A stretch of DNA of 36,756 nucleotides. Source: a virus. Made by a program: the position numbers and the translations under genes. The stretch's first letter is position 1, and each line of letters begins with the position of its first letter. A model generated the notes under the pieces. It searched no databases. It saw only the letters and a program-made list of their open reading frames with translations, and had not been told where the DNA came from. The stretch lies in the IMG/VR virus record IMGVR_UViG_3300031787_000391, positions 1 through 36,756 of that record. One strand, given 5' to 3'. This document shows, piece by piece, positions 852-36,244 of the stretch.

Positions 852-1865
852 TTATTTGTAAGGCTGCAGAAGCGACAAAAAGGCCGATTCACGGGCCTTG
901 TTGATCTCGTCGAAATTGTAGTGCTGCTGGCAGTATTCGTACAGCGCCTGCCCTTGCTGTTCCCGCAACTCCCGGCTGTCACGTAACCGCTCCATGTGAC
1001 GCAGCCAGTCTCCCTCTGTGCGGACGTAGTTTACCAACGCTTCCGGGAAGCCAAGGTAAGGATGCACAGCACTTACCACCACCGGGATCTTCTTACCGGC
1101 AGCTTCCAGTATTTTGAGGTTGCTTTTATACGTGTTAAACATAGTTTTCAACAGCGGGATAAGTGCCACGTCTGCAGCGCTGTACAGGTCGTAATATTCA
1201 CTTATGGGGCGGCCGCGCATAATGGTATTGGATTGCTTACCGTAGTTGGTGAAATAGTCCACCATAGGCTTCCAGTGCGCTATTTCCGTTTCGTTGCTGT
1301 CCGTATAGCCGCCGATAACGAAATGCACAGACCCAGTGATTTTGCTGATGGGATTTTTGAGCAGCTTCAGATCCTCCCGGTGTGTGATGCCTCCCGCCCA
1401 GAAGAACTTAACGAACTCTGTCTCGAAGCGGTCGCTGTGGAACTGGCCATTGCCGTATGGTATGGCATTCGGGCAAAGCAGGATATTGTCGTTGTAGGTC
1501 TGCACCATAGCCGCCAGCCGTTCATGGGTGCAGGTGACCAGGTCCGCTTTGCGCAGGTGCCGGACAATGGCTGTCGGGTAGTTGGCATCCATGTATCCGT
1601 CGTACATGATGTGGTGGGCATCCAGTATCCAGTAATCATCCACATCGACGATAACTTTGAACCCGTACTTTGCACGCAACTCGAAAATATCATCTTTGTC
1701 CCAGGTGCGGCTGAGCCACACGATGTCCCAGCCTTCATCCAGCAGCCCTTCTGTGATGGTGTCGGTAATCCGGGCGCGCTCCTTACCTTCCATGAGAATG
1801 GTGGGCAGCATGAGGCGGTGGTAGCCCACACCGCTGTGCTGCTGCGTCAGTACGAGTATCTTCAT
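852..1865 (-). CDS. GT-B fold glycosyltransferase (GT4/GT1-like)
   Basis: A 337-residue protein resembling retaining GT-B glycosyltransferases, which transfer a sugar from a nucleotide-sugar donor. The N-terminal half has the Rossmann-type start MKILVLTQQHSGVGYHR and a segment KVIVDVDDYW. The C-terminal half has FFWAGGITHREDL and the donor-site helix region SNLKILEAAGKKIPVVVSA, where a glutamate normally contacts the sugar nucleotide. No signal peptide or membrane segment is seen, so it should act in the cytosol. It sits between the prohead protease and scaffold genes, which suggests modification of virion proteins; DNA or host surface glycans are alternatives. Donor and acceptor cannot be read from the sequence. 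Confidence 0.8.
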   Translation of the reverse strand: MKILVLTQQHSGVGYHRLMLPTILMEGKERARITDTITEGLLDEGWDIVWLSRTWDKDDIFELRAKYGFKVIVDVDDYWILDAHHIMYDGYMDANYPTAIVRHLRKADLVTCTHERLAAMVQTYNDNILLCPNAIPYGNGQFHSDRFETEFVKFFWAGGITHREDLKLLKNPISKITGSVHFVIGGYTDSNETEIAHWKPMVDYFTNYGKQSNTIMRGRPISEYYDLYSAADVALIPLLKTMFNTYKSNLKILEAAGKKIPVVVSAVHPYLGFPEALVNYVRTEGDWLRHMERLRDSRELREQQGQALYEYCQQHYNFDEINKARESAFLSLLQPYK

Positions 1866-11433: not shown

Positions 11434-11696
11434 ACGCCAAAAGTTTCAATCATTTGTTGAATGCCTTCAAAATAACAGGATTTGCAGAAGCGGTTCGGGA
11501 ACCACTGCGCGCCGTACAGCTCCCGGTAAATTGCTTCCAGTTCCAACTTGGCAGCTGGTGATAACTCCCGGATGTAGCCGACGCGAACGGTAGCCCATTC
11601 GTGCTCAATAGCCAGGAATCGCTCTTTCAATGTAGGGGCGGCGGGGGCTGCTGCAGCCTGCGCCGGTGCTTTTGTTGTTTTCTTTTTTGTGCTCAT
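11430..11696 (-). CDS. Small CxxC protein, function unknown
   Basis: An 88-residue protein with a low-complexity Lys/Ala/Pro N-terminus (MSTKKKTTKAPAQAAAAPAA) and a folded C-terminal part. The latter contains IYRELYGAQWFPNRFCKSCYF, which includes a CKSC pair that could bind zinc or form a disulfide. It is coupled by ATGA overlaps to genes on both sides (DUF1360 upstream, methyltransferase downstream). Short proteins ending with such a motif are common in Bacteroidota phages upstream of terminase, but I cannot assign a role. Confidence 0.7.
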   Translation of the reverse strand: MSTKKKTTKAPAQAAAAPAAPTLKERFLAIEHEWATVRVGYIRELSPAAKLELEAIYRELYGAQWFPNRFCKSCYFEGIQQMIETFGV

Positions 11697-11920
11697 CTGT
11701 CAAGGTATGCGGCCAAAGCAGCGGCAGAAAGCGCCACAAAGGCCATGTTTTGAATAAATACGGGTGAAGCGTATAAACACACCGCCAGCCAGAAGGACAG
11801 GCACAACGGGCAGGAAAAGGGCTTACGCGCGAAGAGGCGGTAACGTTCCGGCAGGCGTAATACGTCAATGGTTACCCACGCCATCAGTACGGCGCTTATC
11901 GGGATGGTCAGTATGTTCAT
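11693..11920 (-). CDS. DUF1360-like small membrane protein
   Basis: A 75-residue protein with two predicted membrane spans: residues 1-16 (MNILTIPISAVLMAWV) and about 40-72. The central PFSCPLCLSFWLAVCLY fits the CxxC-x-x-FW signature of DUF1360, a family of small membrane proteins found in phages and bacteria. Starts and ends are ATGA overlaps with the flanking genes, so it is part of a tightly coupled block. No function is established for the family. Confidence 0.7.
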   Translation of the reverse strand: MNILTIPISAVLMAWVTIDVLRLPERYRLFARKPFSCPLCLSFWLAVCLYASPVFIQNMAFVALSAAALAAYLDR

Positions 11921-12624: not shown

Positions 12625-14004
12625 CTATTTCCGTTTTAAGTATTTTTCAATCCTTGCTTTAACCGCTTCCATCAGTGCGTCCTGCCCCTGCGCTTTGCCC
12701 TCCAATGCCTTCATTACATCTTCGTCCATAGTGCCCTTTGTCACCAGGTGGTGTATGATCACCGGCTTCTGCTGCCCCTGCCGGTCCAGTCGTGCGTTGG
12801 CCTGTTGGTACAATTCGAGGGACCAGGTAAGCCCGAACCACACGATGATGTTGCCGCCTGCCTGCATGTTCAGCCCGTGGCCGGCACTGGCGGGATGCGC
12901 CAACAGCAGCGGCACCTTGCCTTCGTTCCACCGTTGGATGTGTTCCCGGCCTTCCAGTTCTTCCGGCTTGAACGCCCGCAGGCTGTGCTTGATGCGGCTC
13001 AGGTCGTGCTGGTAGCTGTAGAACACCAGCACCGGCTGCCCGTTGGCGGCTTCCACGATTTCGTGGAGTGCTTCCAGCTTGGCGTCGTGGATCTCGTGGA
13101 CGTTGCGCTGCTCGTCATAGATAGCACCGTTGGCAAACTGCAGCAGTTTGGTGTTAAGGGCTGCAGCGTTCATGGCGGTGATCTGTGCCTCCTGCGCCAG
13201 TGCAAGAATCTGAATGCGTTCAAAGTCTTCGTACTTCTTCTGCAGTTCCGGGCTCAGCCGTACATCCACCATCCGGTCAATGCGTCCGGGCAGCTGCAGA
13301 TAATCTTTCGCTTTCATGGATACACAGATGTCCCGGATTTTGTCGTAGATCACCGACGGCTGCACGTCTTTCTTCAATCCGTATTTGTACACGATGTTGC
13401 CGTTCTGTGCCACCGGCAGGAAATACTGCTCCCTGTACTGGCTGATGGTTTTACCCAGCCGTTCGCCCTGGTCCAGCAGGTACAGCTGCGGCCAGAGGTC
13501 GATGAGGCTGTTGGGCGCCGGGGTGCCGGTAAGCCCTACCACCCGGGTCACCTGCGGACGGATACGGCGCAGTGCCCGGAAGCGTTGTGCCTTGCTGCTT
13601 TTGAAGCTGCTCAGCTCATCTATCACCACCATATCGAATGGGAACTTGTTGGCATAGTAACCCACCAGCCATACCACGTTCTCGCGGTTGATCACATAGA
13701 TGTCAGCTTTTGCGGCCAGCGCAGCTTTGCGCTGCTTTTCGGCACCCAGCACAATACTGATCTTCAGGTGACGCAGATGGTCCCACTTCTCCACCTCGCT
13801 GATCCAGGTATCCTCTGCCACCCGCTTGGGTGCGATCACCAGCACTTTGTTTACTTCAAGGTCGTGGTACATCAGATGGTCGATGGCTGTGAGGGTGCTC
13901 ACCGTTTTACCCAGACCCATGTCAAGGAACAGACCCGCTGCCGGGTTGTCCAGTATGTGGCTGGTAGCATGTTGCTGGTAGGGGTATGGTGTGTACTGCA
14001 TCAC
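12625..14004 (-). CDS. SNF2-family DNA helicase/translocase
   Basis: A 459-residue SF2 ATPase. Motif I is DMGLGKT (28-34), motif II is DELS (129-132) in the variant form common in phage SNF2 proteins, and motif III is GLTGTPAPN. C-terminal RecA-like domain motifs are ASAGHGLNMQAGGNIIVWF and the arginine-finger helix YQQANARLDRQGQ (motif VI). Phage SNF2 proteins next to VRR-NUC and DNA polymerase genes are thought to remodel replication or recombination intermediates. The start at 14004 is in an ATGA overlap with the VRR-NUC gene, so the two are translationally coupled and may act together. Confidence 0.93.
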   Translation of the reverse strand: MMQYTPYPYQQHATSHILDNPAAGLFLDMGLGKTVSTLTAIDHLMYHDLEVNKVLVIAPKRVAEDTWISEVEKWDHLRHLKISIVLGAEKQRKAALAAKADIYVINRENVVWLVGYYANKFPFDMVVIDELSSFKSSKAQRFRALRRIRPQVTRVVGLTGTPAPNSLIDLWPQLYLLDQGERLGKTISQYREQYFLPVAQNGNIVYKYGLKKDVQPSVIYDKIRDICVSMKAKDYLQLPGRIDRMVDVRLSPELQKKYEDFERIQILALAQEAQITAMNAAALNTKLLQFANGAIYDEQRNVHEIHDAKLEALHEIVEAANGQPVLVFYSYQHDLSRIKHSLRAFKPEELEGREHIQRWNEGKVPLLLAHPASAGHGLNMQAGGNIIVWFGLTWSLELYQQANARLDRQGQQKPVIIHHLVTKGTMDEDVMKALEGKAQGQDALMEAVKARIEKYLKRK

Positions 14005-14279
14005 TGTGTTACTTTTTTCAGGAAGGGTTCAATCTGATCGGTGTGGTCGATTACCTCCACCAGGAATCCCATCTTGGTCAACATGGCGATCACCAGCTGC
14101 TGGAGGTGCGATGGTTTTTTGCCCGGCCGTTTGATTTCGGCGAAGGCCACCCTGCCCGGCGCCAGCAGGATCATCCGGTCCGGCAGCCCGGATAAGCTAA
14201 GGCTGTTCAGTTTGAGGCAGACGCCGTTCATTTTTCGCACTTCTGTAAAGAGTCTCGCTTCGATAGTTCTTTCTTGCAT
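14001..14279 (-). CDS. VRR-NUC domain nuclease
   Basis: A 92-residue single-domain VRR-NUC protein. Its PD-(D/E)XK-type core is visible as SLSGLPDRMILLAPGRVAFAE followed by IKRPGKKPSHLQQ. The aspartate of PDR and the FAEIK glutamate/lysine would be catalytic. The QQ..M helix is typical of the family. Stand-alone phage VRR-NUC proteins are proposed to resolve branched DNA. It lies between the iteron cluster and the SNF2 helicase, to which it is coupled by ATGA. Confidence 0.9.
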   Translation of the reverse strand: MQERTIEARLFTEVRKMNGVCLKLNSLSLSGLPDRMILLAPGRVAFAEIKRPGKKPSHLQQLVIAMLTKMGFLVEVIDHTDQIEPFLKKVTQ

Positions 14280-14300: not shown

Positions 14301-14585
14301 GTTACCAGTGTTACCTGTTCCACAGCGTTTCCATACTATATAGGCGTTTAGGCGGCGTAAAGGGCTATATACGCGTGTATGGGCGCTTTTTTCTCTATAA
14401 TTCCCCTTTTACTCTTTTTATCAATTTCAGTGGTAACAGTGGTAACAAACGGCTGAAACCTTTGCTGCTGCTGCGTTTCGGCTGTTACCACAGGTGTTAC
14501 CACTGCATTTTTTGTGGTAGCAGTGGCAACAATCTCTGTTACCACTGAAAAAAGCACTGGTAACACTTTTCCGGCCACTGGTAAC
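14301..14585. repeat. Iteron-like repeat cluster, candidate replication origin
   Basis: Nine perfect copies of GTTACC or its complement GGTAAC lie in 285 bp, starting at 14301, 14310, 14432, 14441, 14484, 14496, 14538, 14559 and 14580. Degenerate copies lie at 14516 (GGTAGC) and 14525 (GGCAAC). The extended consensus is CAGTGGTAACA. Three adjacent pairs, counting the degenerate one, are 9 bp apart. Both orientations occur, and the copies fall in different codon phases of the small ORF here. Two lie outside any ORF, so the constraint appears to act on DNA. Position directly after the primase-helicase gene supports an origin or initiator-binding region. Confidence 0.72.
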
Positions 14586-14599
14586 ACCTTTTTACTCAT
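14348..14599 (-). CDS. Uncertain 83-residue ORF over the iteron cluster
   Basis: An 83-codon ORF starting MSKKVLPVAGKVLPVLFSVV, whose ATG overlaps the end of the primase-helicase gene (GATGAGTAA). Most of its composition comes from the underlying DNA repeats, read as VLP, VVT and VTT in different phases. It also has a Gln run (QQQQ). The unusual composition suggests that the ORF may be incidental to the repeats. Coupling to the upstream gene keeps a real small protein possible. No domain is recognised. Confidence 0.4.
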   Translation of the reverse strand: MSKKVLPVAGKVLPVLFSVVTEIVATATTKNAVVTPVVTAETQQQQRFQPFVTTVTTEIDKKSKRGIIEKKAPIHAYIALYAA

Positions 14600-17018
14600 C
14601 TTCAAACCCTCCCAAATCACCCCTTTGGGTTATTTCATAAAAGCTGCCGACCCTGTAATACCCCCGCTGAAGGCCGTAAATTCCGAACCTTGCTTTGGTC
14701 TTGTAAGGCTTCCAATCATCCAGCAATCGCATTGCGTCATGTATGAATTTGGTGTTGGCGGTGTGCATATCCCCCAGCTTCATACCAAATGCTTCAACCC
14801 ATATCTCAGCTGCACACACCCTGTCTCGCTGATGCTTTCCGATAGGCTCCAGCTCGTCGTCGGTCTGGTAATATTCCCGGCGCTTGTACATGTCCCTTTC
14901 CTCCCATCCGTCGGGCAACAGCTTCTCCAGGTACCTTTCAATAATACCGGCACGGTCGTCGCGCTCGCTGTGCTGCTCCTGCACTTCCATTGCTATTGCT
15001 TCCAGTTCTTTTGGCAGGTACAAAGGCTCGCCTTGTTCGTACAGCACCACCGCTTCCGCCCATATCTGGTCCACCTCCGTTTTGGTCAGTTCCGTGAACA
15101 GATCCTTCTTTGGATTGCCGGTACGTATCGGCCAGAAGCGACGATTCCCGGTACTGTCGCGCAGGAAGTCGGCTTTGTTGGTGGACCCAAAGAAGATACA
15201 CTGGCGGGGAAAGTTTTCGATGCGCTTACCATAGGCCACCCGGAAGCGATCTTCACACTTACTTACGTAGTGCTTCACCGTCTCCACCTCCTGCTTCTTC
15301 ATACCACTGAGCTCAGCCACCTCGATAATCCACACACCCTGCAGCTGTTCGTATGCTTCCTTGCCCTGCATCGTGGTGAAGCTGTCGCTGAACCAATGGC
15401 GGCCCAGCCTGGCGAAGAGGCTACTCTTACCAATACCCTGCGGCCCTACGGTCACGGCCATGTTGTCGAACTTGATACCCGGACGCATCACCCTGGCCAC
15501 TGCTGCCACCAGCATCTTCCGGGCCACGGCACGGGTGTACTCGTTATCCTCGGCACCCATGTAATCAATGAACAGCGTGTCGACCCGCTCCTGTTCGTCC
15601 CAGCTGAGCGTGTCGAGGTAGTCCCGCACCGGGTGGAACTTGTGGCGCTCGTATATCACGGACAATGCTTTCTCCAGCTTGCCGGTGGTAAGGCCGTACA
15701 CCGTCTCGATGTAGTGCTCCATGTTATCGGCATCCCGGTCGGTCAGGTAACGGTCAGCGAAGGTGACGCTGCGCCAGGGCAGGCGGCGCGTGAACACCGG
15801 CCGGTTCTCGAAGAGGTCGTACTGGAGGTTGCTGCTGAGGTGCGGGTCGTTCTCCATGATCTTCACAATATTGTCGATAGTGGACAGCAGTGTACCTTTC
15901 TTATCATAGTCCAGCTCCTTCATCCAGTCGCGGCTTCCCTCGGTCAGCTCCACACCCTCGAAATCACCCATGGCACTCTGGAGCCGGTCTTCACCGAACT
16001 GCTGCTTCACCCGGCCATCCTTGATGGCGAGATCCGTCATAGCAGAGAAACTCGGCATCTTGTTCACCGGCGTACCTTCCTTCGCGTCTTCGTCCTTCAA
16101 GCCGAACAGGTGCAGGCGCACCAGGTCGAAGGCGTTGCACAGCTTGCTGCTGGCAGGATCTGTGGCATGGTGTGAGAAAGCGAACTTGTCGTCGTAGGTC
16201 ACCACCCCGGCAGCCGTAGAGCCGCCTGTGAACGTATAGCGGTTGTTAATAGCGCAAGGTTCGTAAGTACCGGGCAGGAACGTCTCGATTGCCTCATGGA
16301 TAGTGTACGCCCGGCAGAACGCCCCTACGATGCCAGTCTTCTCCAGCGGATCACCCTGCTTGGCGATGTCGCGCTGCACCAGCTTGTCCACCTTGCTGCT
16401 CACCGGCCACTCGCTTACGTCCCGCCAGTTGTGATAAGACGCCAGTACCTCATCGGCACATACCCACGGACCGTCCTGCACCTCGAAGAGGAACTCCCCA
16501 TCCTTAGCGGTGGAGGGCCAGTACATGAGGCGCTCCGGCTGGAAGGTGGAGGGATCGAAATATTCAATCCCCAAATTACCCGCTACCCGCCGGCCGATGG
16601 CTTCGCACTCGTCAGGCGTACACTCGCGGTCGATGGGTAGTACCAAACGCAGGCGGGGTGATTCCGGGCTGTGCTTGTGGGTGGAGTAGATGCAGGCCGC
16701 GTTGTCGTAGAGCATCGTAAACTCATCCCAGAAGCCCACCGGCGCATAGTCCATGTCGAGGGTAAGCAGCTGCCGGGCGATCACCGCACCCTTGCGGCGC
16801 TTGCCTCCTGCGAGGTGGCCGCCTACGAAGCCGCCCACGTCCTTGATCTCGTCCTGCCGCCCCTTCTTGGCGCTGTTGTATTCCCGGTACGTCTCAGCAG
16901 TACGGTGTGTAGTGCTGAGCTTCTTCACCAGGTCGCTCCACTGCATGTCCCGGTTCTTCCATTGCAGCTCCTTACGGCTGCGGCCTGTGCTTATGAGTAT
17001 GTGTCCGTCGTGGTTCAT
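14592..17018 (-). CDS. Primase-helicase (AEP-like plus VapE/SF3 helicase)
   Basis: An 808-residue replication protein. The N-terminal part has archaeo-eukaryotic primase-like motifs: LLTLDMD (D88/D90), STHKH (112-116) and the following basic PRLRLVLP. The C-terminal half is a VapE/VirE-type SF3 ATPase: Walker A GPQGIGKSS (525-533), Walker B region VWIIEVAEL (562-570) and GSTNKADFLRDSTGNRRFWP (611-630), the conserved motif C/arginine-finger segment. It should synthesise primers and unwind DNA at the origin, working with the family A polymerase just upstream. The start overlaps the 55-residue gene by ATGA. An iteron cluster begins within its last codons and extends downstream. Primase assignment is slightly less certain than helicase. 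Confidence 0.9.
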   Translation of the reverse strand: MNHDGHILISTGRSRKELQWKNRDMQWSDLVKKLSTTHRTAETYREYNSAKKGRQDEIKDVGGFVGGHLAGGKRRKGAVIARQLLTLDMDYAPVGFWDEFTMLYDNAACIYSTHKHSPESPRLRLVLPIDRECTPDECEAIGRRVAGNLGIEYFDPSTFQPERLMYWPSTAKDGEFLFEVQDGPWVCADEVLASYHNWRDVSEWPVSSKVDKLVQRDIAKQGDPLEKTGIVGAFCRAYTIHEAIETFLPGTYEPCAINNRYTFTGGSTAAGVVTYDDKFAFSHHATDPASSKLCNAFDLVRLHLFGLKDEDAKEGTPVNKMPSFSAMTDLAIKDGRVKQQFGEDRLQSAMGDFEGVELTEGSRDWMKELDYDKKGTLLSTIDNIVKIMENDPHLSSNLQYDLFENRPVFTRRLPWRSVTFADRYLTDRDADNMEHYIETVYGLTTGKLEKALSVIYERHKFHPVRDYLDTLSWDEQERVDTLFIDYMGAEDNEYTRAVARKMLVAAVARVMRPGIKFDNMAVTVGPQGIGKSSLFARLGRHWFSDSFTTMQGKEAYEQLQGVWIIEVAELSGMKKQEVETVKHYVSKCEDRFRVAYGKRIENFPRQCIFFGSTNKADFLRDSTGNRRFWPIRTGNPKKDLFTELTKTEVDQIWAEAVVLYEQGEPLYLPKELEAIAMEVQEQHSERDDRAGIIERYLEKLLPDGWEERDMYKRREYYQTDDELEPIGKHQRDRVCAAEIWVEAFGMKLGDMHTANTKFIHDAMRLLDDWKPYKTKARFGIYGLQRGYYRVGSFYEITQRGDLGGFEDE

Positions 17019-19133: not shown

Positions 19134-19343
19134 TTATTCTCCCGGACCTACTATAAGAAGCAGGTGCCAATTTTTGGTTATTAAAATGTCGAATCTGTTC
19201 TTTTGCTTCAGGTATTCGCAGTACTGCTGAATGACCTGTTTGCGCTGGTTGAAGGTTTTATGCACATCCGGATTGATGCGTACCTCCACTTCATCCACCT
19301 TGCTGTCTTTTATGTATAGCTCCAGTTTCATTTTGCGTTTCAT
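19134..19343 (-). CDS. Small basic protein upstream of DNA polymerase
   Basis: A 69-residue Lys-rich protein, MKRKMKLELYIKDSKVDEVE onward, with alternating beta and helix (HKTFNQRKQVIQQYCEYLKQ). It starts in an ATGA overlap with the 130-residue Cys-rich gene and ends directly before the polymerase start (TAAATG). Nothing identifies its function. Basic charge and location allow a nucleic-acid-binding accessory role, but this is speculation. Confidence 0.65.
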   Translation of the reverse strand: MKRKMKLELYIKDSKVDEVEVRINPDVHKTFNQRKQVIQQYCEYLKQKNRFDILITKNWHLLLIVGPGE

Positions 19344-35725: not shown

Positions 35726-36244
35726 CTATCCTGCTGTTTCCAGTGCTGCTGCCGTTGCAGAATCCACTTCGATAATGCCGTCCGGTTCTTTACCCATGAA
35801 CTCCAGCTGGTAGCCGTTACGGTCGCCGAATGCAGTGCCGGAACCACTGGTGCTGGGACTCATGTCCAAACCGCGATCTTTACCGAGCATCCAGAACTTG
35901 TTGTTGTTGTCTTTTACAACAGCCACCAACAGGTTCTGCGCCAGCAGCTTGATTTCAGTGTTCACTGCCGTGTTCAGCTTGTTCACCACAATGGTCATCG
36001 TCTGTTCAAAGAACAACGTGCCGTTCTCCTGGTTAGGCTGCGGGTTGTTGGTGAAGTTGCCGGTTTCTTTGGGCAGTTCGTATTTCCAGAATCTTTTGTT
36101 GGAGGCTTTCGTAATGCCTGTAATTACGCCGGAAGCAGTAGCCACGGAGCTGATGTTCGCCTTCTCGATGAAGTACACCTCCGTAATACCGCCGCTGGAG
36201 TCTTTACAGTCTAACGAATAGCCACTTGTGAGCGCACAGGCCAT
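35726..36244 (-). CDS. Tail-tube/major tail protein candidate
   Basis: A 172-residue protein following capsid: MACALTSGYSLDCKDSSGGI, a beta-rich middle (NGTLFFEQTMTIVVNKLNTA, VNTEIKLLAQNLLVAVVKDN) and DRNGYQLEFMGKEPDG near the end. The latter resembles the Y-x-L/I-x-F-x-G/A-x-E turn of small tail-tube proteins. Size and position suit a tail-tube protein, though it could be another abundant virion protein. It is followed by a strong terminator, which would favour high expression of capsid plus this gene as one unit, as expected for the two most abundant virion proteins. Confidence 0.55.
   Translation of the reverse strand: MACALTSGYSLDCKDSSGGITEVYFIEKANISSVATASGVITGITKASNKRFWKYELPKETGNFTNNPQPNQENGTLFFEQTMTIVVNKLNTAVNTEIKLLAQNLLVAVVKDNNNKFWMLGKDRGLDMSPSTSGSGTAFGDRNGYQLEFMGKEPDGIIEVDSATAAALETAG

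Follow-up and report, generated by a model that had tools for sequence, protein, structure and literature searches.

The 285-bp repeat array at positions 14,301 to 14,585 is very probably the replication origin of a phage, bound by the winged helix of the adjacent VapE-type primase-helicase; the binding, and the assembly, melting and initiation that would go with it, are inferred. The array lies in the window, by which we mean the whole stretch of DNA analysed, which is one virus record, 36,756 bases long. We observed the array together with its place and spacing among relatives, an A+T-rich gap, a predicted winged-helix fold in VapE and the tracking of the repeat by the C-terminal domain of this protein. 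The best reading is a self-loading origin of the P4/PICI type in ordinary tailed phages, the specificity of which drifts while its geometry is conserved. The array anatomy of the P4/PICI type is found here in tailed phages and prophages of two phyla. The original prediction, an iteron replication origin bound by a phage initiator, is supported by the array position and by the geometry kept in relatives, binding and replication start remaining inferences.

The array sits between the VapE stop codon and a VRR-NUC nuclease gene. The gene order on the minus strand is exonuclease (DUF2800), Enc34-type ssDNA-binding protein, family A DNA polymerase, VapE, array, VRR-NUC and SNF2-type helicase. Matches to terminase large subunit, portal, tape measure and tail fibre are present, and the window, judged from its sequence, is a tailed phage and not a satellite. 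A glycosyltransferase-like gene (PHROG 7162; window 852-1865) is located at the record end, next to the tape-measure gene. The features are as follows.

14001 to 14279, minus strand: VRR-NUC nuclease gene, bounding the array on its far side (PHROG 93, 3.7e-22)
14301 to 14315, minus strand: distal inverted 9-bp pair (hexamer search and EM motif)
14316 to 14431, 116 bp: A+T-richer gap between the arms, the proposed melting region (A+T composition)
14348 to 14620, minus strand: small 90-aa ORF overlapping the array and covering most of it
14432 to 14585, both strands: helicase-proximal iteron arm (hexamer search and EM motif)
14432 to 14446, plus strand: anchor 9-bp pair beside the A+T-rich gap, with an inverted copy 41 bp toward the helicase gene
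14580(+), 14559(+), 14538(-), 14496(-), 14484(-), 14441(+), 14432(+): exact sites of the proximal arm
14525(+), 14516(+): degenerate pair of the proximal arm
14592 to 17018, minus strand: VapE-type primase-helicase, 808 aa, the proposed initiator (Pfam, PHROG and PDB 7pds matches)

Nine exact GGTAAC/GTTACC hexamers had been claimed for the array against about 0.1 expected (13.46 x 285/36756); all nine were found, and in both orientations, as claimed. The whole window holds 28 GGTAAC copies (either strand) against 13.5 expected, a count that none of 100 shuffles reaches, and nine of the 28 lie inside 14301-14585. Chance clustering of the hexamers is ruled out by the excess over expectation in 285 bp together with the shuffles. 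The three predicted 9-bp pairs, one of them degenerate, were located at 14301/14310, 14432/14441 and 14516 (GGTAGC)/14525 (GGCAAC), and the extended consensus nnCAgTGGTAACA was recovered. An EM motif with the consensus GTGGTAACA gives 11 sites, the nine exact and two degenerate copies, the word of the array being GGTAACA. The array begins about 7 bp past the vapE stop, hence immediately 3' of the putative initiator gene, a PICI/SaPI-type feature. Its spacing is not arbitrary: along the coding strand, starting at the VapE stop, the sites follow one another in steps of 21, 23 (inverted), 11 (inverted), 9, 22 (inverted), 12, 41 (inverted), 9, 124 (inverted) and 9. The gap has an A+T content of 59% versus 49% window-wide, which is a modest excess. 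A CRISPR-like tandem array was rejected, the sites being on both strands and the steps unequal. GC skew was uninformative: its minimum is at 36029 and its maximum at 338, and it does not turn around 14.4 kb. Outside the cluster GGTAAC is also somewhat frequent (19 of the 28 copies, with 13.5 expected for the entire window).

VapE relatives were drawn from viral contigs, genome contigs and named phages, the best 80 of 188 and the best 80 of 140 being kept. The resulting 175 loci, including the window, were reduced to 174 with a VapE stop, to 130 after removal of those at least 90% identical and to 128 with enough flank; the hosts of these 128 non-redundant relatives are Bacteroidota and Bacillota. 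The densest hexamer cluster of the whole locus is at the VapE stop (-200 to +450) in 88 of the 128, this region being 5.3% of the sequence on average, and the cluster there beats all 100 dinucleotide shuffles in 90. In both phyla, and with varying neighbouring genes, the array stays behind VapE, lying partly within the end of the VapE gene and partly beyond it, and VRR-NUC is found behind VapE in 117/128 relatives. The repeat words differ by lineage (GGTAACA, GGAACA, GTTACA, GTAACA, GTAAAC, GGATAC, GGCAAC, GTCTCA, ACTACA and others). Motif similarity is 0.44-0.49, near background, below about 60% VapE core identity and 0.79 above 70%; a Chitinophaga rhizosphaerae locus (L095, core 60% identical) shares the word of the window, GTGGTAACA. 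Conservation of the repeats in related phages, which had been suggested as a check, thus proved to be one of place and geometry, while the letters change. Relatives that keep the peptide VTT/VVT/VLP without the DNA repeats, which had been named as a refutation, were not seen. In L095 and in a second locus, L015, the iterons extend into the VapE coding end and give rise to VT-rich tails there.

The conserved feature is the spacing, centred on a pair with a step of 8-9 bp, and not the repeat letters. Motifs were built only for the 90 loci whose region beat all shuffles. In 73 of these a same-strand pair (spacing 7-10 bp) is preceded at 38-50 bp by an inverted copy (step-shuffle mean 36, maximum 50), in 75 an inverted copy is found 85-130 bp after the pair (mean 47, maximum 58), and both partners are present in 70 (mean 12, maximum 21; 300 trials in each case, steps shuffled per locus). 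Seventy of the 90 loci could be anchored on the pair for a spacing histogram, in which the opposite strand peaks at -42 to -46 relative to the pair (about -44) and the same strand at -65/-66, -76 and -85/-86; smaller peaks occur at, for example, -118 and -128. The same-strand period is 10.6 bp (R 0.656, 208 sites), the maximum for random per-locus shifts being 0.286 in 2,000 trials. As the loci are related, counts by cluster are also given: with one locus for each of 43 clusters at 60%, R is 0.67, a site occurs at -76 +/-1 in 25/43 and an inverted site at -43 +/-1 in 24/43. The A+T-rich stretch between the arms is about 90 bp in relatives, after which an inverted copy or pair follows; it is 72% A+T versus 56% for the loci, and is higher than its locus in 70/70 anchored cases. 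The polarity of the gap-adjacent pair could not be fixed across families (38 '+' and 32 '-' by the ACA rule), many motifs being near-palindromic.

A code score of at least 2 is obtained at the VapE stop in 89/128 loci, against 0/166 shuffled regions and 22/811 stretches elsewhere in the loci; a score of at least 4 is obtained in 61/128 and 0/811, respectively. Counted by 60% clusters, the code is present in 50/77, and the code or a significant array in 61/77. The thresholds were read off the same loci, therefore these scores measure specificity and are not an independent discovery; P4 and Staphylococcus phage QT1 were not used in deriving them. The score of the window's own sites is equalled by 360 of 50,000 random arrangements, which is good but not extreme. 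At the VapE stop of 39/128 relatives, Croceibacter phage P2559Y (L175) among them, the code was not found. In the array-negative loci a motif-free hexamer scan for a displaced origin yielded nothing convincing, searching three stretches of L175, L006 and L179 for repeats was no more successful, and as a group these loci are no different in their VapE to VRR-NUC distance (median 240 vs 261 bp). L175 carries about 720 bp without an annotated gene (2261-2979) between the ssDNA-binding protein and the polymerase; this stretch contains one 19-bp repeat with its copies 43 bp apart.

Among named phages and satellites eleven records were scanned, and a motif was built for six of them. Staphylococcus phage QT1 shows the full pattern with the word AGGGACG (steps 9, 22 inverted, 12, 44 inverted, 9, 102 inverted, 9), and Streptococcus phage Javan630 has the steps 44 inverted, 9, 99 inverted, 9. 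Only the near arm is seen in Paenibacillus phage Bloomfield, a cultured relative with a clear array. The fit is partial for phages 3A and Stiles and for the satellite Javan337, and an array is present in Dulem virus 37 (L176). The scan of the named records found no array at this place in Bacteroides phages BF486P3 and BO668P1, both of which lie outside the 128 relatives, in Croceibacter phage P2559Y or in the satellite Javan127.

In the P4 record NC_001609 the annotated type 1 repeats in ori have the steps 10, 11, 22 (inverted), 43 (inverted) and 10. Relative to the last pair the sites are at -43 (inverted), -65, -76 and -86, on the phage peaks, and this fit to the phage profile is equalled by 0/200,000 random arrangements and by 2/5,280 helically phased ones. 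The right-hand unit of P4 crr, beside the alpha gene, fits the profile less well (3,776/200,000). P4 resembles the window in having short iterons in both orientations and in the location of crr directly 3' of the alpha (initiator) gene, as the array adjoins VapE. It differs in its type 1 word (CTGTTCACC versus GGTAACA), in the separation of ori and crr, whereas the window has one cluster, and in being a satellite, whereas the window is a tailed phage. P4 alpha is without recognisable homology to the window VapE (hhalign against a single alpha sequence: C-terminus 0.1% probability, helicase 7%); the shared geometry may therefore reflect either deep ancestry or a common physical constraint. Alpha is reported to attach to its repeats through a winged helix before unwinding and priming (PMC4234260).

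PICI origins lie immediately 3' of the initiator gene and consist of two iteron sets with an A+T-rich region between them (PMC6092414), and the PICI/SaPI Rep binds the iterons through its C-terminal domain (PMC7581432). The window is similar in the location of the origin 3' of the initiator gene and in the iteron sets flanking an A+T-rich region. PICIs and SaPIs are satellites without virion genes of their own, whereas the window has terminase, portal, tape measure and tail fibre; the array would thus work like a PICI origin, yet the window is not a PICI. A detailed spacing code for PICI/SaPI origins did not appear in the cited passages. In SCCmec the C-terminal domain of the Cch2 helicase binds direct repeats directly downstream of its gene, a putative origin (PMC7581432), which differs from the array in having three 5-nt iterons only and in belonging to a chromosomal cassette. 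Iteron plasmid origins of the SGI1 type are DnaA-dependent, with a DnaA box beside the iterons (PMC7433901). Such an origin was rejected here for lack of a DnaA-box match near the array, TTWTNCACA occurring in the window only at 19258 and 29546.

VapE of the window matches the Pfam VapE-like_dom (1.4e-84), PHROG 256 (helicase) and PHROG 9765 (primase). VirE/VapE ATPases are predicted to be helicases of mobile elements (PMC5862659). A VapE match is present in 1,041 phage records. In its helicase and C-terminal domain VapE is homologous to PriRep1 (PDB 7pds, 'The structure of PriRep1 with dsDNA'), with an E value of 6e-124 by profile, and of 2.3e-39 by Foldseek (36% identity over about 450 residues); unlike PriRep1, it is extended by an N-terminal half that matches a primase family. 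A C-terminal winged helix is predicted at about residues 690-795, encoded at the array-proximal end of the gene. The isolated C-terminal model (pLDDT 88.9) matches 7pds best (Z 12.6, 107 residues, 3.3 A); behind it comes a mixed set, in which winged-helix DNA-binding proteins are numerous, with Z values of about 4-6, a range commonly met. The P4 origin-binding domain was absent among the 50 matches listed for the VapE C-terminus with VIA-align, which excludes nothing.

A covariation test based on shared hexamers was weak and was replaced by a motif-matrix test, which 87 of the 90 motif loci entered. Motif similarity tracks VapE residues 726-795 beyond residues 1-680 (partial r 0.123, 1/200 permutations), and the predicted recognition helix, residues 752-766, likewise (partial r 0.142, 0/1,000 permutations). 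Among the 12 best 15-residue VapE windows 11 start at residue 703 or later, the remaining one at 589. The C-terminal sequence follows the repeat more closely than the remainder of VapE does. With a partial r of about 0.12-0.16 the covariation is nevertheless weak, and some is seen for helicase residues 571-680 as well (0.094, 3/200 permutations). The likely initiator is the VapE primase-helicase itself, acting through its putative C-terminal winged helix, with binding inferred from sequence and a structural model. No evidence in this analysis points to an RHH protein as the binder.

Several points stand against the origin reading, namely the missing code in 39/128 relatives, the weak covariation, the lack of recognisable homology to P4 alpha, the modest A+T excess of the window gap and the code score of the window itself, which random arrangements reach in 360 of 50,000 cases, and other explanations of the array have to be considered. 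That it is an accessory cis site similar to P4 crr, bound by VapE for control or assembly while replication starts elsewhere, is improbable. The repeat block directly behind the P4 alpha gene is indeed crr, with ori about 4.7 kb off, but the window has only one GGTAAC cluster, the cluster at the VapE stop is the densest of the locus in most relatives (88/128), and the phage geometry matches P4 ori better than crr. It is less probable still that the array is an origin to which not VapE but some small phage protein, or an initiator of the host, is the primary binder. Such a binder is left room by the lack of binding data and the weakness of the covariation with VapE; against it, the array follows VapE through two phyla and varied gene contexts, the winged helix predicted at the VapE C-terminus has a homologue in a Rep whose structure was determined with dsDNA, and the array has no DnaA-box match nearby.

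We regard it as very unlikely that the repeats are operator sites of a regulator controlling the replication operon. They do sit between genes of one operon, but there are 11 of them, extending over about 290 bp and surrounding an A+T-rich gap with the geometry of P4 ori, and operators are usually short and located upstream of the operon. Hardly any credence can be given to a coding accident, in which the repeats would merely reflect the repetitive peptide VTT/VVT/VLP of the small ORF. The 90-codon frame (14348-14620) spans most of the array, but the copies, which had been said to sit in differing codon phases and to reach past the ORF, do both: the 11 EM sites are on both strands and occupy all three phases, and the distal pair falls outside the frame. 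Since the ORF product also has no Pfam or PHROG match, we judged that it is not the selected feature.

For the array as a VapE-bound origin, we propose that the C-terminal winged helix of the primase-helicase would bind the short iterons. These would present a fixed helical geometry, consisting of a pair, an inverted copy about 44 bp off and same-strand copies one helical turn apart, completed by a second inverted pair across the A+T-rich gap. Owing to this geometry VapE subunits may assemble on both sides of the gap, by inference as two ring complexes, and the assembled protein would melt the gap and load as replicative helicase, and as primase for the family A polymerase of the phage. The geometry would be kept because the initiator fits it, and the repeat letters may drift together with the recognition domain. 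As the array has the anatomy of a PICI/P4 origin, the same mechanism is the simplest reading.

A wider proposal, for which we see the balance as even, is that one sequence-independent spacing code governs the origins of self-loading helicases of the VapE/D5 class in tailed phages, satellites and P4. In full, the code would comprise an arm with iteron slots at intervals of one helical turn, an inverted slot at about -44, the pair, the melting gap and a mirrored pair; the letters being rewritten freely as the winged helix changes, the geometry would be the conserved signal. On this wider proposal, origins and binding words could be read from sequence alone, and the origin of each phage would be a private lock. 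If the code holds, origins could be located by geometry even with the repeat word unknown, and the initiator-origin interface would offer a natural series for studying how the specificity of a DNA-binding domain changes. In the open full-text literature, to the extent that its text was available, no description of iteron origins behind VapE in phages or of the spacing code was found, and a prior description is possible.

Further repeat clusters were seen away from the VapE stop in three relatives. At the edge of one stretch (L048:3-318), about 8.2 kb before the VapE stop, there are 14-15 copies of a CCCGTACAC-like word. A second dense array with 11 GGAACA copies is located about 7.5 kb before VapE in L117 (533-779), where the array of VapE itself uses GTGACA, and is possibly the origin of another element. 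L022 has, besides a GTAAAC array at the stop, ten CGGGAC copies at 11658-11836, about 3.3 kb behind the VapE stop.
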